A DNA stretch of 39,228 bases from the NCBI RefSeq assembly GCF_023250475.1, contig NZ_JAHFAQ010000004.1, positions 1 through 39,228 on the forward strand, written 5' to 3'. The notes under the pieces were generated by a model. The model was not told the origin of the DNA. It searched no databases and worked only from the letters and a program-made list of their open reading frames with translations. Each line of letters starts with the position of its first letter. The stretch's first letter is position 1. A program made the translations under genes and the position numbers. Below, in pieces: positions 28,560 through 39,228 of the stretch. The DNA comes from Sulfuricurvum sp. Lineage in GTDB: Bacteria; Campylobacterota; Campylobacteria; Campylobacterales; Sulfurimonadaceae.

Positions 28560-30371
28560 ATGTCCACTTTTGTACCGATTACCGTCGTCTCTCAAAATGT
28601 AGTACAAGATTTAAAAAAAGCTGCACTGGAACAGAGAGTTCCGGTTGATGCGCTGGATTTCGATTTATTCTCGTATGAAACCTATTTCAAAGAAACGACG
28701 GATGAAGAGTGGCAACGCCTTAGAGAGAGCGACCTCCTCTCTCAAACCACCGAAATAGAAGTACGCTCTCCCCATTTTCTCCTCCGCCAAGAGTATCAAA
28801 TCCATATCCGGTTGCAAAAACCCCACCCTTACCTCAATCTTAATTTTACGATTGCAACCGATAAAACCAAAAGCAAAGTGATTGTCATCATTGATCCAAC
28901 CTCAAAGATTCCCCTTAAAAAAGGGATTCAGGAGTGGATCAAAGAGGCTATTATCCGTAAAATGCTTCGACATGGTCTCCTTATCGGTCTTTATGATCAA
29001 GGGCTCGATCGTGAAATCAACCGCCTTATCATTAAAATACAGAAAGAGGGACCCCTCGCATTTTTGTATCGCTTAACGATCGGCGAATTTTTTCTCCCGA
29101 TTCTTCCGATCAATGACAAAGTGATCCTCCATTACAAAGAGGCAAACAAAACCAACAGTCTTATCGAAGGGGTCTCCCCCGGAGATTTGATTCTCGAATA
29201 TATTCTTCCGAAATACGGTCGTGACGGCCGTGCCTGTACCGGAGAGCATATAGCCGTTCCTGACCCGTCCACAAAATACGCAAACTACATTGTGATTGAT
29301 CCCGAAACCGTCCGAAGTGAACAAGATGAAGAGAGTATCCGCTTTTTTGCTTCCGTTTCAGGATTTGTTGAACGAAAACAAGGGATCATTTTTATTTCGC
29401 AAGAGCTTCAAATCGAATCGGCTAGTTTCAAAAAAACCGGTTCGATCGAAACCGGATTAGACAAAGATGTATCGCTGAAAATCAATAAAAAAATTTCCAG
29501 TGAAGATGCCGTCGGGATGGGAGTAAATATCGACGTTCTAAAGCTCGATGTAAGCGGAACCATTGGAAGTAACTCCAAAATCCAGGCATGTGAAGTCAAT
29601 ATCGGTGCACAAACGCATAAACGATCCCAGATCAATGTTTCAGAGATTGCAAATATTCATCTCCATCGCGGCAATCTTAAAGCCAAAGAGGCAAATATTA
29701 CCATTTTAGAAGCAGGGAAAGTGGAAGCCGATATCATCCGTATCCAGAAAATGATGGGAGGGGAGATTATCGCACGTGAAATTCACATCGATACCCTTTA
29801 TTCCAATGCCCGTGTAATTGCGCTTGAATCGATAACCATCCAAAATATTGAAGGGGATGGCAATAACCTGATTATTGATCCCCATGCCATTGAGAGTTAT
29901 CATGACAAAATTACAGAGTTAGAGATAACTATACGGGATAAAACGTCCCGTTTGCAGATAGAGAGTAAAGAGTTTATTGCTCGAAAACTCACACTTAAAG
30001 AAAAAAGTGCCCGTATCAAGGAAATCCAAGAACGGGTTCTGGTGAAACAAAAAAAAGGGGAACTCCCTTTAAAAGCCGATCTTGTCAGATTGCAACAATA
30101 CAAAGCTGAATCCGAATCTCTTCATGAATTTGCCGAGAAACTCAAAGAGGTAGAAACCGATATCCAACTTATCGGAGAAAAACTGGAGCAACTCTACGAA
30201 GCCGATCTTCACGCTATCATTACCCACTACGGAGTCTATAACGGACATAGCCGGATACTCTTTATAGACCCGAAAACTCATCAGGAGCATAGTATTTCTC
30301 CTGAAGGAAAAGTGACCAAAGTCCGGTTAAAAAAAGAGAATGATGAGAAGAAATTTCAATTGGAATCGTAA
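28560..30371 (+). CDS. FapA/DUF342 family protein
   Basis: Long right-handed beta-helix-like repeats (IGSNSKIQACEVNIGAQTHKRSQINVSEIANIHLHRGNLKAKEANITI) with C-terminal coiled coil. Confidence 0.8.
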   Translation: MSTFVPITVVSQNVVQDLKKAALEQRVPVDALDFDLFSYETYFKETTDEEWQRLRESDLLSQTTEIEVRSPHFLLRQEYQIHIRLQKPHPYLNLNFTIATDKTKSKVIVIIDPTSKIPLKKGIQEWIKEAIIRKMLRHGLLIGLYDQGLDREINRLIIKIQKEGPLAFLYRLTIGEFFLPILPINDKVILHYKEANKTNSLIEGVSPGDLILEYILPKYGRDGRACTGEHIAVPDPSTKYANYIVIDPETVRSEQDEESIRFFASVSGFVERKQGIIFISQELQIESASFKKTGSIETGLDKDVSLKINKKISSEDAVGMGVNIDVLKLDVSGTIGSNSKIQACEVNIGAQTHKRSQINVSEIANIHLHRGNLKAKEANITILEAGKVEADIIRIQKMMGGEIIAREIHIDTLYSNARVIALESITIQNIEGDGNNLIIDPHAIESYHDKITELEITIRDKTSRLQIESKEFIARKLTLKEKSARIKEIQERVLVKQKKGELPLKADLVRLQQYKAESESLHEFAEKLKEVETDIQLIGEKLEQLYEADLHAIITHYGVYNGHSRILFIDPKTHQEHSISPEGKVTKVRLKKENDEKKFQLES

Positions 30372-30536
30372 GCCATTCCTTTTGGATTGATCATTAATCA
30401 GACAAAACGATAAATATTAGTCATAAAATAAGATTAGATGATCAAAATTTAATCATTATTCCTTCCTCATTCCCACCTATTGCTTCTTATACTGTCACTG
30501 TTATTTAACCTAACTCTTTATTTCGCAGGAACCACG

Positions 30537-33032
30537 ATGCAACGCAACCACCTCATCAACTATATGTCCGATGTTCAAAATTTTGAAAAGAACATGAGTA
30601 CCCTATCGGGTAAGTGGGATTTACTTACTCTACTAGGCTCGATGTCCAATATCGGCATGGATACGAGTGAAACACGAAAAGCTTTTGAGGACTTGCTTGA
30701 TGAGCCTCTGTTGCGCCTTATTGAAGAGACCTTTAACAAAAGTCTCAATGAACTCGAGTCCAAAGCACAGACGGCAATCGATATCCTGATCCGCAACCTT
30801 TTCGAACGTACCGCCGATATCGGATTCCTCGCAACGGACGATGATATTCGCGATTATCTCCTCTTTTTACACTCTGCCGATATGTCGGCATCCGAAGAGA
30901 TGCGCGAAATCAAAATCAAGAAAAAAGAGGCTCTTACCGGACGTTTTAGAGAATATGTCGCTAAATACAGTGTTTATGAAAATATTATCCTTCTCGATAC
31001 CAAAGGAAAAGTGCTCGTACAGCTCGATAGTGCCAATCCGATCACCCACTCTAAAGATCCTCTGATTCAAGAGTCCCTGCATACGTATCAAGGATATGTC
31101 GAAACCTTTTCTTCCAGCGATCTGACGCACCAAAAACCTTCGCTCATCTACTCTTACCGTGTCAGCAACCCCGAAACCGAAGAGCCGTTGGGGGTACTGT
31201 GCCTTATTTTTCGGTTTGAAAATGAACTTCAAAGCATTTTTCGAAAACTGACCCGTGAAAATCCGTATATTGCACTGGAACTTCTCAGCCCCGACGGAGA
31301 CGTTATCGCTTCATCATCCGCACACCACGTGCCGGTAGGGTCCTATTTGTCTCCGCGCAATAATGCCGATCATCAAACCTACTATGCCGGATTCGAATAT
31401 CTTTACCAAGCGGTAAAAACGACTGGGTATCAAGGGTATAACGGGACGGGATGGATCGGACATGCGATGGTCCCTTTACATCTGGCATTTCGTTCCTCGT
31501 CACGCCCTTCGTTTCTTAAAAACGAGCTCTTTGATTCAGTCGCGAACGCCAAAGTCTACTATCCGCAAGAGCTCAAAGATATTTTGGAAAAAGCGAAAAA
31601 AATCCAAAGCGAACTCGATATTACCGTCTGGAACGGTAATGTCCAAATCGCCAATGCGATCGGTCACGAAAGCCCATTTACCAAAGCCCTCCTCTCTGAA
31701 ATATCGAAAACCGGAGAAGAGACCAAGAGGGTTTTTGATCATACCGTTGCCAATCTCAATTCGGCCATGATGGTGCAGTATCTTGAAGATTTAAAATTTC
31801 AATCCTCTCTTGCTATCGACATCATGGACCGTAACCTGTATGAACGGGCGAATGATTGCCGCTGGTGGGCTTTGACGACAACCTTTCGGGAGTGTTTATC
31901 CCATATCAATGTCAGCGAAGAGTATCGTGAAAAGATGAACTCCATATTGGGATACATCAACAACCTCTATACCGTTTACAGCGCTATGTTCATTTACGAT
32001 CGTGAGGGGACCATCGTATCGGTTTCGAATCCGTCCGATAATGGTATCATCGGAAAAAAAGTGGGATATTCATGGGCAATGGAGACCCTGGATCTCAAAA
32101 CGACTCAAGAGTATGTGGTATCGACATTCGAACCGAGTCCTTATTATTCCGGCCGTTCAACCTATGTCTATAATGCCTGTATCCGTAATTTTAACGAAGA
32201 AAATGTCGGCGGAATCGGGATTGTCTTTGATGCCGAGTCTCAGTTTGAAGCAATGCTGAACGATACGCTCCCGAAAGACGAACACCATGAGATCCCGGAG
32301 GGGATGTTTGCCCTTTTTATCGATCGCAGCGGCCGTGTCATCTCTACCACTACCGCTCTAATCCGTGTAGGAGATGTGCTTAATCTCCCGGTAAGTGTTT
32401 TGGAACTCACACCGGGGCAAAGCGATGCGCAAATCATCCCTTTCGGGGGGGTCTATTACGCACTCGGAGCAACCTGCTCCAACGGGTACCGCGAATACAA
32501 ACAAAGCGACGGGTACGACAATGACATTATTGCCCTCCTCTACCGTCCTATCGGAGAAGTTCAAGCGATTGAAGCTGAGACTCCGCTCCAACGGGTCTAT
32601 ACCTATCCAAAAGCGAACGGAACCGAAGAGACATCCGAAATTTCAACCTTTTTCGTCGGCGGATCGCTTTTTGCGGTCGAATCTAAAAATGTCGTCTGTT
32701 CACTCGCCCATCAAGAGCTTACCTCGATACTCCACGCAAGCGAATACAATCTGGGGGTCATCAGTTATGACAAACGGATGGTAAGTGTTATTTCCCTAGC
32801 CAAATTGCTCGGTATGGAGAAAAAATACGACAAAGAGAGCGATACCATCATCCTCGTCAAAGCGGTTATCGAAAAGCAGGTTGTCTATCTCGGATTTGCC
32901 GTCGATGCAATCTACAGCAGCCCAGAGATTCCGCTTCGCTCGATCAGTCAATACAGCAATGTCTTGAAAAATGAAAATTCATTGACCAAAGCCGTTATTA
33001 TCCCAGACAATGCCGAAGATTTCGGAAACTAA
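30537..33032 (+). CDS. Tandem Cache-like sensor protein with C-terminal CheW-like domain
   Basis: ATG 30537 preceded by GCAGGAACCACG (RBS); two homologous sensor modules; C-terminal ISTFFVGGSLFAVESKNVVCSLA...LGVISYDKRMVSVISLAKLLG...IILVKAVIEKQVVYLGFAVDAIYS is CheW-like. The track's TTG start at 30480 lacks an obvious RBS. Confidence 0.8.
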   Translation: MQRNHLINYMSDVQNFEKNMSTLSGKWDLLTLLGSMSNIGMDTSETRKAFEDLLDEPLLRLIEETFNKSLNELESKAQTAIDILIRNLFERTADIGFLATDDDIRDYLLFLHSADMSASEEMREIKIKKKEALTGRFREYVAKYSVYENIILLDTKGKVLVQLDSANPITHSKDPLIQESLHTYQGYVETFSSSDLTHQKPSLIYSYRVSNPETEEPLGVLCLIFRFENELQSIFRKLTRENPYIALELLSPDGDVIASSSAHHVPVGSYLSPRNNADHQTYYAGFEYLYQAVKTTGYQGYNGTGWIGHAMVPLHLAFRSSSRPSFLKNELFDSVANAKVYYPQELKDILEKAKKIQSELDITVWNGNVQIANAIGHESPFTKALLSEISKTGEETKRVFDHTVANLNSAMMVQYLEDLKFQSSLAIDIMDRNLYERANDCRWWALTTTFRECLSHINVSEEYREKMNSILGYINNLYTVYSAMFIYDREGTIVSVSNPSDNGIIGKKVGYSWAMETLDLKTTQEYVVSTFEPSPYYSGRSTYVYNACIRNFNEENVGGIGIVFDAESQFEAMLNDTLPKDEHHEIPEGMFALFIDRSGRVISTTTALIRVGDVLNLPVSVLELTPGQSDAQIIPFGGVYYALGATCSNGYREYKQSDGYDNDIIALLYRPIGEVQAIEAETPLQRVYTYPKANGTEETSEISTFFVGGSLFAVESKNVVCSLAHQELTSILHASEYNLGVISYDKRMVSVISLAKLLGMEKKYDKESDTIILVKAVIEKQVVYLGFAVDAIYSSPEIPLRSISQYSNVLKNENSLTKAVIIPDNAEDFGN

Positions 33033-33116
33033 ATGATCTCGATCCTCGACATACCCAAAATCTATGGACAGCTGATCCAGCCATACGCTCGCCCCTTGCA
33101 TAAAGTGATGGCATAA
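33033..33116 (+). CDS. Candidate 27-aa small ORF (MISILDIPKIYGQLIQPYARPLHKVMA)
   Basis: ATG directly follows the upstream TAA (TAAATG); GGAA at suitable spacing; in-frame TAA at 33114. Confidence 0.35.
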   Translation: MISILDIPKIYGQLIQPYARPLHKVMA

Positions 33117-33258
33117 CACTCTTTTCGGAGGCCTTCTTGCCTCCTATAGATCGCTTTATATCCTTCAAACTGCTCATAAATACGTTCATCCCACGGTAAT
33201 ATCCCATGTTGGTTATTTTTTAATCATATATAAATTACTTTTTGATCATATTGTTGAC

Positions 33259-33298: not shown

Positions 33299-34576
33299 AT
33301 GAAATTTGGCGCTTTAAAAAAAGAGGGACACTGGCCGACACTGCTCGCCGCATTCCTCTATTTTGACTTTAGTTTTATGATGTGGACGATGTTGGGGCCT
33401 CTTGCTACCGAGATCAACGAGTCTTTAACCTCTAGAGGCTTTGCGATGAATGACGATCAGACCGCTACTCTTTTGGCAGTTCCGGTACTCGCCGGAGCTA
33501 TATTACGTCTGGTATTGGGAATATTCGTCGATAAATTTGGTCCGAAAAAGACCGCTTTAGTTTCCCAAAGTATTGTTATCGCTACATTGTTTTATGGGTT
33601 CTTCGCGGCAGCGTCGATCACGTATGATCAGTTATTGTGGGTAGCATTAGGACTCGGATTCGCCGGTGCATCGTTTGCCGTAGCACTGCCTCAAGCAGGA
33701 CAATGGTATCCGCCTCGTCTGCAAGGGACAGTTTTAGGTATTGCGGGTGCCGGGAATATCGGTGTTGTTATCGACTTTTTGTTTGCCCCGAAGATAGCTG
33801 AAATTTGGGGATGGCCATCGGTATTTCTCGTCGGAGCCGTATTATCGTTTGTCGTTTTATTCGCCTATATGTTTCTGGCTAAAGATGCTCCCGCATCGGT
33901 CTATAAACCCAATCCAAAGAAGCTTGGGGATTACCTGAAACTGCTGCGCGATCGCGATACCTGGTGGTTTAATCTCTTTTACGCAGTGAGCTTCGGCGGA
34001 TTTATCGGCTTTGCCAATTACATGAAAGTCTATTTGATGAACACCTACCAAGCGGATATGTCAACGTTTGGGATTAACGTCATGGAGGAGGGAAACGTGA
34101 AAGTCATTGCAGGCTATTTCGGAGCACTGTGTATCTTTGCCGGTGCCTTGCTGCGTCCAGTCGGAGGAGCCATTGCCGATAAAATGGGGGGGATTAAATC
34201 ACTTTATGTGTTTTACGGTAGTATCATCGTTTTAGCACTGATCAGTGCGTTCGTCAGCTTGCCGTTTTGGGCAGCAATTCTTGTAATGTTTCTCATTATG
34301 GCGAATCTGGGAATGGCTAACGGCTCAGTATTTCAGCTCGTACCGCAGCGTTTCGGTAAAGATATCGGTGTTATGACGGGTCTGATCGGTATGGCCGGAG
34401 GTCTAGGCGGAACGGCTCTGATCAAAACTTTCGGTTGGTCACAAAGTGCATTTGATGGCTATGCTGCGGGATTTGTGATCTTTGCAGTGATGACGGTGAT
34501 CGCCCTATCGGGAATCAGTTTAGTCAAAACCCGTTGGCGTACGACATGGGGTGCGGTTTCGGGGGCACGGATATAA
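33299..34576 (+). CDS. narK: Nitrate/nitrite transporter, NarK/NasA-type MFS
   Basis: ATG 33299 after AAAAGGAGACGCT; 12 TM MFS with RLVLGIFVDKFGPKK, GFAGASFAVALPQAGQWYPPRLQGTVLGIAGAGNIG nitrate-signature-like, second-half ANLGMANGSVFQLVPQRF. Confidence 0.92.
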   Translation: MKFGALKKEGHWPTLLAAFLYFDFSFMMWTMLGPLATEINESLTSRGFAMNDDQTATLLAVPVLAGAILRLVLGIFVDKFGPKKTALVSQSIVIATLFYGFFAAASITYDQLLWVALGLGFAGASFAVALPQAGQWYPPRLQGTVLGIAGAGNIGVVIDFLFAPKIAEIWGWPSVFLVGAVLSFVVLFAYMFLAKDAPASVYKPNPKKLGDYLKLLRDRDTWWFNLFYAVSFGGFIGFANYMKVYLMNTYQADMSTFGINVMEEGNVKVIAGYFGALCIFAGALLRPVGGAIADKMGGIKSLYVFYGSIIVLALISAFVSLPFWAAILVMFLIMANLGMANGSVFQLVPQRFGKDIGVMTGLIGMAGGLGGTALIKTFGWSQSAFDGYAAGFVIFAVMTVIALSGISLVKTRWRTTWGAVSGARI

Positions 34577-34682: not shown

Positions 34683-36320
34683 ATGCTTAAAGTCCAATCT
34701 TCCGAATTCATCCTCCCCAAAGACACCACCACAGGTGATGACGCTTGTGCCTACAGCATTATTGACAATGCTCTTCTGGTGAGCGTGTTGTGCGATGGAG
34801 TCGGAAGTGCGGCACGCGGAGGGACTGCCTCACGCCAGTGCGTCAAATTTTTCATCGATCAGTTCAAAAACCGCCCAAAGGCTTGGGATATCCCCAAAAC
34901 GATGGAAGTATTTACCCGCCATATCAACAGCCTCCTCTTTAAAGAATCCATGACCCAATACGGAAAAATCGAGCTTCTCACGACATTATGTCTCGCAGTC
35001 ATCGAGGGTGAAACGCTCTACACTCTCAATCTCGGTGATTCTCGCATCTATATCCAAAAAAACAATGGGGAGCTTCGCCGTCTCAGCACCGATCATACCT
35101 TGGACGATAAATATATGTCCCATGTTTTAACTCTCGCGTGCGGACTGAATGAAAACATCGATCCCATTATCCTCACGACCCCTTTATCGGTAGGCGATAC
35201 TCTGATACTGTGCAGTGACGGAGTCTATACGCTGCTGGAGGAGTCTGAATTTAACGACATGATCAAAAAAAGACTAGGAGCGCGTACAATTATCCATTAC
35301 ACCGCCCAAAATTGTGAAGCGATCAATCGGGATGATATGAGTCTCCAAATTTTTTATATTGAATCGCTTGACCCGCTTTATGCGATTAAAAACACCCCCC
35401 TTCTGATACCCGAAACCCTGAGTGAAGGGGAAATCATCGATGGATATACCCTTGTATCTGCGATGATGGAACACAAACGGATTTGGAAAGTTGTCAAAGA
35501 TTCCGAATTCTGTGTCATGAAATTTCCCCTCAGCGACGATGAGGAATCGCTCGATGCCTTCGTCCGAGAAGCATGGTATGCTAAACAGATTACCCATAAA
35601 GCATTCGGGCATGCGTGGATTCCGAGCGGGCGCAGTATGCGTTATTATCTCATGGAATTGGTAGAGGGGATAAATCTGCGAGAGTATCTCAAAAATCGCC
35701 CTTTGTCCGTCGATAATGGCGTTGAACTCGGTAAATTTCTCCACCGAGCAGAAGCGCATCTGCTGCATCTCGGGCTCGTTCACGGCGATATCAAACCTGA
35801 GAATATCATCGTATACCAACGCGAGGGGGAAGCCGGAGTAGATTTTAAAATGGTCGATTTCGGCTCTATCGTCGAAATTTTTTCGCTCAATAATCGTGCC
35901 GGAACCCCTACTTATCTTGCACCGGAGCGTTTTAACGAAAGTGTTATCAATGAAGCTACGGAGATATTTTCCATAGGGGTGACCCTCTATTGGGCACTTA
36001 CCGCTCAATTTCCCTACGGTGAGATCGAACCGTTCCAAACCCCGACATTCAAGATACCAAAACGCCCCTCTAAGCTCAATAACACTATTCCCTTATGGCT
36101 CGATTCCGTGATTATGCGCTCCATTGCGGTTAATCCACAACTGCGCTATCGCCACTACTCAGAGCTTTTTTATGATCTTAAAGCACCCGAAAAAGTAAAA
36201 CCGTTTTTTTCAGGATCTACCCCTTTGATTGAACGCTCCCCGGTAACTTTTTATAAAATCGGATTTATAATTCTGTTATTATTAGAGATGATTACATTTT
36301 ATCTGTATGTTACCAAATAA
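34683..36320 (+). CDS. PP2C-type phosphatase / Ser-Thr kinase fusion with C-terminal TM anchor
   Basis: PP2C motifs CDGVGSAARGG, LNLGDSRIYI, LCSDGV, NRDDMS; kinase motifs VMKFP, HGDIKPENIIV, DFGS, APERF; C-terminal IGFIILLLLEMITFYLYV. Confidence 0.92.
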   Translation: MLKVQSSEFILPKDTTTGDDACAYSIIDNALLVSVLCDGVGSAARGGTASRQCVKFFIDQFKNRPKAWDIPKTMEVFTRHINSLLFKESMTQYGKIELLTTLCLAVIEGETLYTLNLGDSRIYIQKNNGELRRLSTDHTLDDKYMSHVLTLACGLNENIDPIILTTPLSVGDTLILCSDGVYTLLEESEFNDMIKKRLGARTIIHYTAQNCEAINRDDMSLQIFYIESLDPLYAIKNTPLLIPETLSEGEIIDGYTLVSAMMEHKRIWKVVKDSEFCVMKFPLSDDEESLDAFVREAWYAKQITHKAFGHAWIPSGRSMRYYLMELVEGINLREYLKNRPLSVDNGVELGKFLHRAEAHLLHLGLVHGDIKPENIIVYQREGEAGVDFKMVDFGSIVEIFSLNNRAGTPTYLAPERFNESVINEATEIFSIGVTLYWALTAQFPYGEIEPFQTPTFKIPKRPSKLNNTIPLWLDSVIMRSIAVNPQLRYRHYSELFYDLKAPEKVKPFFSGSTPLIERSPVTFYKIGFIILLLLEMITFYLYVTK

Positions 36321-36329
36321 AGGTTTTTA

Positions 36330-36755
36330 ATGCTCTCTTCCGCCTGCCAAGATACGATTCGAGCCGCCGTATGGCTCTCTACCCAACCAAAAGGAGAGTT
36401 TCATCGGATTCAAGAGATCAGTGAAGCGCTGGAACTGCCGTTTCATTTTATGGCAAAATCACTCCAAAAACTCGTTCGTGCCGGAATACTAATCTCGCAG
36501 CGCGGCGCGACTGGAGGCGTTTCCCTCTCCCGTGAAGCTTCCGACATTACCCTTTTCTCCATCATCGAAGCAGTTGATGGAACAACCTTTTTTGATGCGT
36601 GTGTGTTGGGAATCGGAGACTGCGAAGCCGAAAAGCCCTGTGCCCTCCACGCTCAATGGGATGTATGGCGTCAAGAGATGCTCGAAATGTACTCTGCCAT
36701 GCGGTTGAGTGAAATCACGGAAGATGTACTCCATAGAAAAATCAAACGTATTTAA
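36330..36755 (+). CDS. Rrf2-family transcriptional regulator with three-cysteine cluster motif
   Basis: Rrf2 HTH (IQEISEALELPFHFMAKSLQKLVRAGILISQRGATGGVSLSR) and C-x6-C-x5-C (CVLGIGDCEAEKPC). Confidence 0.92.
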   Translation: MLSSACQDTIRAAVWLSTQPKGEFHRIQEISEALELPFHFMAKSLQKLVRAGILISQRGATGGVSLSREASDITLFSIIEAVDGTTFFDACVLGIGDCEAEKPCALHAQWDVWRQEMLEMYSAMRLSEITEDVLHRKIKRI

Positions 36756-36947: not shown

Positions 36948-37724
36948 ATGAATGGGAAACTCTATTTAATCGGTTGCGGACCCGGCGATGCTGACTTGTT
37001 GACCCTCAAGGCCCTCAAAAGCATTGAAAAACTCGATATTGCCCTTATCGATCATCTGTTAACTCAAGAGATAATTGATTTGATCCCCTCTTCCGCTAAA
37101 ATAATTTTCGTTGGAAAAGAAAAAGGGAAACACAGTTTTCCGCAAGAGCAAATCAATACGATGATCAGTGAGTATGCACTGCAAGGATACACGGTAGGAC
37201 GTCTCAAATGCGGTGACCCCTACATCTTCGGTCGCGGTACGGAAGAGGCGATATATGCCTCATCCCACGGTATCGAAACAGAGGTAATTCCCGGAATATC
37301 TTCGGCTTTTTCAGGACCTCTTTCTGCGGGAATCGCCCCCACTGCCCGTGGAGTAAGTACGGGAGTATCGGTAGTATCGGCTCATCTTTCAGGTGATCGT
37401 GTCAACCTCACATGGATCCCTATGCTTGGGGTGGAGGATCATACGACCATAGTTCTTATGGGGGTAAGCCGAACCCGTCAAATCGTCAAAGAGGCATTGG
37501 AAAAAGGGATTGGTGCCGCGTTGCCAGTCGCTATCATTTCCAACGCGACCACAGCCATCCAAAGCACCATCATCACAACACTCGGCGAACTCGTCACGGC
37601 AGCGAAAGAGGCTCCGAAACCGGCTATTTTAGTCTTCGGGAACGTTGTGAATTTAGCTGAAATACTCCCGAAATATCGCTATGAGCCCAAGGAGGTGTGT
37701 TATGACATCACTTGCGAAGGCTAA
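36948..37724 (+). CDS. cobA: Uroporphyrinogen-III C-methyltransferase (siroheme branch)
   Basis: LYLIGCGPGDADLLTLKALK, GRLKCGDPYIFGRGTEE, VIPGISSAFSGPLSAGIAPTARG, VLMG motifs. Confidence 0.95.
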   Translation: MNGKLYLIGCGPGDADLLTLKALKSIEKLDIALIDHLLTQEIIDLIPSSAKIIFVGKEKGKHSFPQEQINTMISEYALQGYTVGRLKCGDPYIFGRGTEEAIYASSHGIETEVIPGISSAFSGPLSAGIAPTARGVSTGVSVVSAHLSGDRVNLTWIPMLGVEDHTTIVLMGVSRTRQIVKEALEKGIGAALPVAIISNATTAIQSTIITTLGELVTAAKEAPKPAILVFGNVVNLAEILPKYRYEPKEVCYDITCEG

Positions 37725-39228
37725 TACGGAACGAAGTGTCAAACGGCACAAAACCGAATCAATAAAGGAGCTGTTTAACGCTGCAGAAGCATGGGAACGA
37801 CTGATAGGATATGCCTCGAGCGGTTATGCATCCATCCGTGAGGAAGATAAAGATTTCGTCCTCAAAAGCTTCGGGATATTCGACCGACCCGCTACTCCGG
37901 AACGGTTTATGATCCGGGTACGGATCGCCGGAGGGGCTTTGAATGTCGAACAGGCGATGGCAGTCGCCTATGTGGCCAAAACGTTCGGACAAGATTACAT
38001 CGATCTCACCACTCGCCAACAGATCGAGCTGCGCTATATGCGGATCGAAGATATTCCTGAGGCGTTGAAACTGCTCGAAGAGGTCGGACTCACAAGCTAT
38101 CAGACGGGAGTGGATAATTTTCGTAATATTCTCATCGATCCGCTCGATGCTCTGGCGATGGACAATATTATCCCCTGCACGATGATCATGGAACAAATCC
38201 AGTCAATCTTTTTAAAAAATCCCGATTGGATCACCACATTGCCCCGTAAATTCAATATCGGGATTAACGGTTCCCTCTCCAACCGATGCAATATCTTCGG
38301 ACAAGACTTTGCCCTCTCTCTTGCGCAAAAAGAGGGAATCTACGGATTCAACCTCTACCTGGGAGGACGGGTCGGAAGTTTGGCACACGATGCCGATATG
38401 TTCGTCGCTCCCGATGAAGCTGCGAAAGTTTTCGAAGCGGTAGCCACCCTCTTTAAAACCTACGGTTTTCGTGACAACCGCAATAAAAACCGTCTCAAAT
38501 TTCTGATCGAAGCGGTGGGGATGAGTGAGTTTAGAGCCGCGATTGAAGGGCAACTCGGGCGCTCGATGCCCAAAGCCGGTATCAGTCTTACACAGTTGGA
38601 AGGGGGAGATCATTATGGCAAAATTGCTCTCAATAACGGAAATTTCGCCCTCTATGCGGCTATCCCTTCCGGTGTATTTAGCGGAACGGATCTGTTGTAT
38701 GCGGCAAATATTGCACAAAGCCAAAACGGTGCCATCCGCCTCACCATCGAACAAAACCTCATCATCACCGGAATCAGCAATGAGAGCGAGGCATTAGCTT
38801 CCCCTCTCTTTCTCAAATATCCGAACCGTCCCTCACCCTATATGGCGAATCTCATTGCTTGTGCCGGGAGTGAACATTGTCCCTTCGGCGTCATCCCCGG
38901 TAAACCCGACGCAATCGATATAGGTGAATATTTGAGTCGTGAAGTTCCGATCGAAGATGCAAAAGTACGTCTTTATTGGTCAGCATGTGTCAAAGGATGC
39001 GGGGTTCACGGTGCGGGAGATTTGGGATTTGTCGGATGCAAAGTGCCCCGGAACGGGAAAACGCTCTTAGGGGTGGATATTTTTATCGGGGGAACGCTTA
39101 GCGGCACAGGGGGAGAGGCCCATTTGTTGCTAAAAGGGATCGTTCTTGAAGAGGCACGCGAATTTGTCGCCGAGTTGATGCGTCAGTTTCGCGATTTGCG
39201 AAATTCAAAAGAGAGTTTGGAACATTTC
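37702..39228 (+). CDS. nirA: Ferredoxin-type nitrite reductase / sulfite reductase-family siroheme [4Fe-4S] protein, 3' truncated (absent from ORF track)
   Basis: Frame open for 509 codons from ATG 37702 (RBS AAGGAGG) to window end; TTRQQIELRYMRIEDIPE, CAGSEHCPFG (C-x5-C) and SACVKGCGVHG (C-x3-C) siroheme/4Fe-4S ligands; adjacent SUMT and NarK. Confidence 0.92.
   Translation, partial: MTSLAKANTERSVKRHKTESIKELFNAAEAWERLIGYASSGYASIREEDKDFVLKSFGIFDRPATPERFMIRVRIAGGALNVEQAMAVAYVAKTFGQDYIDLTTRQQIELRYMRIEDIPEALKLLEEVGLTSYQTGVDNFRNILIDPLDALAMDNIIPCTMIMEQIQSIFLKNPDWITTLPRKFNIGINGSLSNRCNIFGQDFALSLAQKEGIYGFNLYLGGRVGSLAHDADMFVAPDEAAKVFEAVATLFKTYGFRDNRNKNRLKFLIEAVGMSEFRAAIEGQLGRSMPKAGISLTQLEGGDHYGKIALNNGNFALYAAIPSGVFSGTDLLYAANIAQSQNGAIRLTIEQNLIITGISNESEALASPLFLKYPNRPSPYMANLIACAGSEHCPFGVIPGKPDAIDIGEYLSREVPIEDAKVRLYWSACVKGCGVHGAGDLGFVGCKVPRNGKTLLGVDIFIGGTLSGTGGEAHLLLKGIVLEEAREFVAELMRQFRDLRNSKESLEHF

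Follow-up and report, generated by a model that had tools for sequence, protein, structure and literature searches.

A membrane-free tandem-dCache protein family with a C-terminal CheW domain recurs beside nitrogen genes in Campylobacterota

Proteins in which two tandem dCache modules precede a C-terminal CheW domain, with no transmembrane (TM) helix, form a family found widely across Campylobacterota and in a few cases in Pseudomonadota, and their genes recur beside genes for nitrate/nitrite use and nitrogen fixation. One member is encoded in the stretch of Sulfuricurvum sp. DNA analyzed here (39,228 nucleotides of contig NZ_JAHFAQ010000004.1; hereafter, the window). We consider it probable that the family represents cytoplasmic Cache-CheW input proteins, which inform chemosensory arrays of a nitrogen-related signal within the cell.

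The reading frame in the window is open over 30480–33032 in the ORF listing, and the gene as present there occupies 30537..33032 (plus strand), encoding a truncated protein of 831 aa. The initial annotation had described tandem Cache modules ending in a CheW-like domain, and both Pfam and the structural model of an orthologue (below) confirmed this. With the window protein as the query, dCache_1 (PF02743) matched two stretches (whole-protein E 8.8e-15, 55.3 bits against a cut-off of 45) and CheW (PF01584) matched the C-terminus (E 1.3e-13; score 51.2 bits, cut-off 23.5). A phmmer search of PDB with the same protein returned only weak CheW matches (E about 0.01) and no dCache match. Sensor module 1 (30666..31487, plus strand), delimited from the AlphaFold model of orthologue L012 and the alignment, starts with a 56-residue helix (residues 44–99) followed by a double PAS-like dCache domain extending to about residue 317. 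Sensor module 2 (31674..32576, plus strand), delimited from Pfam, the alignment and the same model, has a 65-residue helix (380–444) and a dCache domain extending to about residue 680. In the alignment the first module carries RNLFERTADIGFL, KYSVY and GYQGY.G.GW, and the second carries DRNLYERANDCRWWAL, LYTVY and GYREYK. Because a single motif set (RNL[FY]ER..D; [KL]Y[ST]VY; GY[QR]xY) is thus repeated, the two modules appear to have arisen by internal duplication. The CheW-like domain recognized by Pfam follows at 32631..33029 (plus strand).

The frame can be read from a TTG at 30480 or from an ATG at 30537, and the initial annotation favored the latter. Comparison with Sulfuricurvum orthologues supports this choice. 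Across about 20 orthologous loci the 57 nt upstream of the ATG are 44–71% identical and contain stops and frame shifts/indels, whereas in the Sulfuricurvum orthologues the 57 nt from the ATG onward align without gaps at 77–91% identity. A ribosome-binding site, AGGAA (30527..30531, plus strand), is located 5 nt before the ATG, and an AGGA/GAGG-type site is kept 5′ of the same ATG in orthologues. The N-terminus of the protein is MQRNHLINYM, and the apparent N-terminal extension MLLILSLLFNLTLYFAGTT (30480..30536, plus strand) is non-coding sequence 5′ of the gene and does not represent a TM helix. Within it, TATACTGTC at 30488–30496 is conserved across the aligned orthologue upstream regions, so that the hydrophobic segment 'LLILSLLFNLTLYF' pointed out in the initial annotation is simply a non-coding element in translation. 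TATACTGTC is probably a promoter −10 element, but a promoter scan gave no sigma-70 match at this conserved position, and we therefore keep the role as putative. A membrane-anchored or periplasmic Cache receptor, read from the TTG and with its TM helix overlooked, would account for the open frame from 30480 and its hydrophobic translation. However, the segment 5′ of the ATG is not coding in orthologues, a second TM helix is absent, a CheW domain must be cytoplasmic and no TM helix is apparent anywhere in the family. The TTG start with a TM anchor was rejected on the basis of the orthologue comparison, and such a receptor is strongly disfavored, to the point of being very improbable.

The absence of a TM helix was borne out at the level of the whole family. 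Taking as a TM criterion a 19-residue stretch at or above 1.9 on the Kyte-Doolittle scale, we found such a stretch in only one of 74 family members, and there it was borderline; in the window protein the highest 19-mer hydropathy corresponds to a pair of CheW β-strands. Four other dCache proteins checked in the same genome have peaks of 2.4–2.8, each accompanied by a second hydrophobic stretch. With no TM helix in 73 of the 74 members, and with translation starting at the ATG, the dCache modules are not placed extracytoplasmically between two TM helices.

The AlphaFold model of L012, an intact and gap-free orthologue, was built with 31 aligned sequences and has a pLDDT of 83.9 and a pTM of 0.72. 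In this model helices 44–99 and 380–444 each enter a dCache module, and the CheW domain spans residues 699–850. Foldseek searches against PDB matched the dCache folds to the sensor domains of DctB, rpHK1 and Tlp3, with TMt values of 0.6–0.7 for the DctB/Tlp3 type. They also identified the C-terminus as a complete two-barrel CheW fold, with TM-scores of 0.76–0.78 normalized to the CheW chains of 2qdl and 2ch4. A CheW-less relative, L078, was modeled with the same fold minus CheW (pLDDT 82.9). The conserved start site, the family-wide lack of TM helices and the modeled dCache and CheW folds all support the soluble sensor-adaptor proposed initially.

The CheW fold makes direct coupling to CheA arrays plausible. 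When the family was aligned to the genome's own CheW (L001), the position corresponding to Arg 62 of E. coli CheW, within the NLRG motif, was not conserved and was occupied by other residues across the family. In E. coli, the R62A substitution in CheW leaves binding to CheA and to receptors intact but impairs chemotaxis (PMC3828127). As the arginine of the NLRG motif is missing and its loss in E. coli is detrimental, the coupling may differ from that of ordinary CheW.

What the initial annotation had overlooked is that the window protein ends early, 28 residues short of its orthologues. All intact orthologues with a complete 3′ end have 859 aa (858–864), and where the window has an in-frame TAA (33030..33032, plus strand) they carry GAA or GAG (Glu). 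Beyond the TAA, an intact C-terminal remnant (33033..33116, plus strand) comprises 27 codons, MISILDIPKIYGQLIQPYARPLHKVMA, plus a stop; in the orthologue alignment these codons are still conserved and the normal stop comes after them. The PF01584 score rises to 61.7 bits if the window frame is continued beyond the premature stop. Mapped onto the L012 model, the stop costs the last CheW strand (834–837) and the C-terminal helix (839–850), and for this reason the window copy is probably impaired. A six-frame search for CheW across the whole genome, which detected nine CheW-containing loci, the window locus among them, likewise reads one TAA inside the window locus. A separate nonsense codon (TCG to TAG) is present at the start of CheW in the 92% identical orthologue of a high-quality 5-contig genome, G062 (L033/L091); apart from this codon the frame there is undamaged.

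The stops may mean that the adaptor function is being lost in this clade; alternatively, one of them or both may be sequence errors. If the window allele is decaying, CheW is non-functional in this lineage and nothing is coupled to CheA here. In favor of decay are two independent nonsense changes within CheW, one (GAA to TAA) in the window, the other (TCG to TAG) in G062. On the other hand, every other orthologue with a complete 3′ end is intact at 858–864 aa, the codons past the stop remain conserved, and a sequence error at the TAA is possible because the assembly is a draft (G000, 2.17 Mb in 185 contigs). Taken together, these observations make decay a minority reading, though one to be reckoned with.

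Within the family, the orthologues of the window protein constitute group A, which is restricted to the genus. Groups B (44–50% identity) and C (37–40%) occur in the same family of genomes as A, and so does group D, a sister group of about 630 aa in which CheW is absent. CheW-bearing copies were also found in two more Campylobacterota families, which look Arcobacteraceae-like and Sulfurospirillaceae-like, and longer CheW-less copies were found in other families of this phylum. Among 399 Pseudomonadota genomes there are six CheW-ended members, including one from Parasulfuritortus (L028); in one of the six (L172) CheW is not called by Pfam. In a maximum-likelihood tree a single branch (SH-aLRT 100) separates all CheW-bearing rows from the others, indicating one gain or one loss of CheW; the tree was computed from sensor columns only by a quick method, is unrooted and has some long branches. 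The genome of the window encodes, in addition, a B-group paralogue (G000:C19:14047-16035) located 4 kb from nifA. No CheW is visible in this paralogue because its 3′ end leaves the contig.

In the window, the tandem-dCache gene is preceded directly by a FapA-like (DUF342) gene (28560–30371; weak PF20250 match, 29.6 bits against 27) and followed directly by a gene for a NarK-family nitrate/nitrite transporter (33302..34576, plus strand). The transporter matches MFS_1 (E 2.4e-40) and TIGR00886 (E 1.5e-73), the latter subfamily match falling below that model's own cut-off. The ORF listing lets it begin with a TTG at 33242; the ATG at about 33302, with AGGAGA before it, is the likelier start. Further downstream on the plus strand are a PP2C phosphatase fused to a Ser/Thr kinase (34683..36320), which recurs in narK clusters, and an Rrf2-family regulator (36330..36755) identified by profile matches. 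Next come a CobA-type uroporphyrinogen-III C-methyltransferase of siroheme synthesis (36948..37724; profile match) and the 5′ part of a NirA-type nitrite/sulfite reductase (37726..39228), an open frame of 501 codons that leaves the window. A NirA homologue elsewhere (L185:12308-14209) matches ferredoxin-nitrite reductase (NF007125), below its cut-off.

The initial annotation had drawn a link to nitrate from the adjacent narK. For direct orthologues this adjacency does not hold: in group A, narK lies within 10 kb in only two of the 22 narK-bearing genomes, the window and G014 (L014), so a conserved narK adjacency had to be rejected and replaced by a wider nitrogen linkage. Eight other group A members have narK on the same contig but 48–475 kb away, and nifA is nearby in none of 23. 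The usual upstream neighbors in this group are the FapA-like gene, which is the most conserved of all, and an RND efflux operon; often a 478-aa gene, which we take to be SelO-like, stands in between. The order fapA–CacheCheW–narK–PP2C/STK–rrf2 is identical in the window and L014, which belong to two non-sister lineages, while closer relatives have no narK block at that place. The shared order reflects either repeated loss or transfer of the block.

It is in the wider family that the link to nitrate, nitrite and nif genes stands, about ten lineages having copies next to narK/nas/nap/nor or nifA/nifX/nifN. For neighboring NifA, NifX, NifB, NifN and NapA, curated names were obtained. In group D, narK lies within 10 kb in 4/4 copies that share a contig with it, and nifA in 5/5. 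Two D copies (L078 and L079) are positioned between narK and napA, L187 is beside napA, L081 follows narK near norCB and L076 is inside a nas/nrt/nirA/narK cluster; L077 and copies from four other genomes are near NifA. In group B, the nifA count is 4/10; L062, L063, L066 and L069 are located next to NifA, and L064 and L177 next to NifX/NifB. In group C the narK count is 2/10, and three CheW-bearing copies (L178, L184 and L185) are located in nas clusters. The 'nas' label of these clusters rests on adjacent narK, nirA or nrtA-like genes, as their catalytic subunits score below the NasA/NasC cut-offs and resemble formate dehydrogenase too. In two other families, L120 is located next to NifA/NifX, and L127 and L128 next to NifN/NifX. 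In contrast to these, most Arcobacteraceae-like copies (L119, L121–L126) reside among housekeeping genes. Overall, narK or nifA is no more than 10 kb away for 17 of 73 family copies and for 0 of 30 ordinary CheW genes from the same genomes (Fisher p 0.0015, uncorrected for phylogeny, so that the counts are not independent of kinship; search tables served to gauge the background). Together with the group D counts and 13 changes of the nitrogen label on the tree, this indicates that the linkage is recurrent.

Could the nitrogen neighborhood nevertheless be incidental to a soluble sensor-adaptor, arising from hot spots or from accessory clusters moved by horizontal transfer? If so, its ligand would be a general one, such as a carboxylate or an amino acid, which dCache folds often bind; the nearest solved structures are DctB and Tlp3. 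Copies of group A and most Arcobacteraceae-like ones have no nitrogen neighbors, and the linkage counts are not independent of phylogeny. Against this stand the 13 changes of the nitrogen label, the occurrence of both nif and nas/nap/nor contexts in several separate lineages, and the control CheW genes, none of which has such a neighbor within 10 kb. On balance we find an incidental neighborhood unlikely.

We therefore return to cytoplasmic input proteins for a nitrogen-related signal as the preferred reading. Two tandem dCache modules, each on a long helix and with no membrane anchor, are joined to the CheW domain, through which the protein would be incorporated into CheA/CheW rings. A small intracellular molecule would be bound by the dCache pair, with an effect on kinase output. 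Because family copies recur in gene clusters for nitrate/nitrite use and nitrogen fixation, the signal would most likely be an intracellular nitrogen-related metabolite or ion; no evidence emerged for redox state, which the initial annotation had considered, or for one specific ligand. The domain content, the lack of TM helices, the start site, the breadth of the family, the one gain or loss of CheW and the linkage to nitrogen genes are observed, while we infer the ligand, the binding to CheA and the direction of the response. Speaking against this reading are the location of group A mostly away from nitrogen genes, the housekeeping surroundings of most Arcobacteraceae-like copies, the non-conserved Arg62-type residue and the nonsense codons in the window and G062. 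A more far-reaching possibility, which we put forward tentatively, is that the whole membrane-free tandem-dCache class evolved as cytoplasmic nitrogen-status sensors. The CheW branch would let bacteria steer by this status without an MCP, and the CheW-less branch, in narK-nap/nas/nif loci, would use the same signal for another purpose.

Among known systems, the closest analogy in the way of working may be CheWS of the spirochaete Treponema denticola, a protein that binds both SAM and CheA and through which SAM taxis is mediated (PMC10653840). In both cases CheW is fused to a soluble intracellular sensor and a cytoplasmic signal enters the array without an MCP, as shown or proposed. In CheWS, however, CheW is N-terminal and the C-terminus is a CheR-like SAM-binding domain, whereas the family described here, known from sequence and models, has a C-terminal CheW and two dCache modules. 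CheV is likewise a multi-domain adaptor containing CheW, but it has a receiver (REC) domain. Pfam detected neither a REC domain nor a CheR-like SAM-binding domain C-terminal to CheW in the window protein, and membership in CheV or CheWS was rejected because the domain content does not match. DctB, Campylobacter Tlp3 and H. pylori TlpC share the dCache fold and the long N-terminal helix, but their dCache is extracytoplasmic, between two TM helices (PMC4822843), and they differ from the present proteins, which have two dCache modules in tandem and no TM helix. Cache domains are regarded as extracellular, although for dCache this position is typical, not obligatory (PMC4822843).

The nitrate sensors NasR, McpN and NreA belong to different domain families, being of the NIT, PilJ or GAF type. 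They may be functionally analogous in sensing nitrogen oxyanions, but no nitrate-sensing domain of these kinds was detected by Pfam in the window protein. We found no paper on the present family; subscription journals and supplements were outside the search, and Fig. S10 of PMC10653840 may list a Cache-CheW architecture. Sensors fused to CheW have hardly been characterized: that study calls CheWS the first characterized CheW-fused sensor and counts 30 undescribed CheW architectures (PMC10653840). A conserved cytoplasmic dCache-CheW family tied to nitrogen acquisition by its neighborhood would provide an example, open to testing, of taxis linked to metabolism via CheW; the phylum concerned plays a central part in sulfur-driven denitrification. 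On this reading, bacteria may navigate by the state of nitrogen inside the cell. For such tests, intact copies from nas or nif clusters are better suited than the truncated one in the window.

The PP2C/Ser-Thr kinase fusion adjoins narK/nas clusters in L014, L076 and L185, lies at most 10 kb away in L081 and is found without narK in L075. It may regulate nitrate uptake; its match to PD-T4-6 defense kinases is through the kinase fold only.

In Pseudomonadota, a Cache of the same type is present in short soluble MCPs (L145–L168, of 319–460 aa; the Pseudomonadota search brought up such proteins of 340–400 aa). They resemble the family in being soluble, in their chemosensory output and in the Cache motif RNLYER..D.RWWA, but they have a single Cache and an MCP signaling hairpin in place of CheW. 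In the fusions seen, this Cache type is thus joined to a chemosensory output, CheW or an MCP signaling domain. The C-terminal Cache of these MCPs carries [DR]RNL[YF]ER..DVRWWATD, the motif of the second module, after the MCP signaling domain, an unusual domain order in which the signaling domain comes first and the sensor last.
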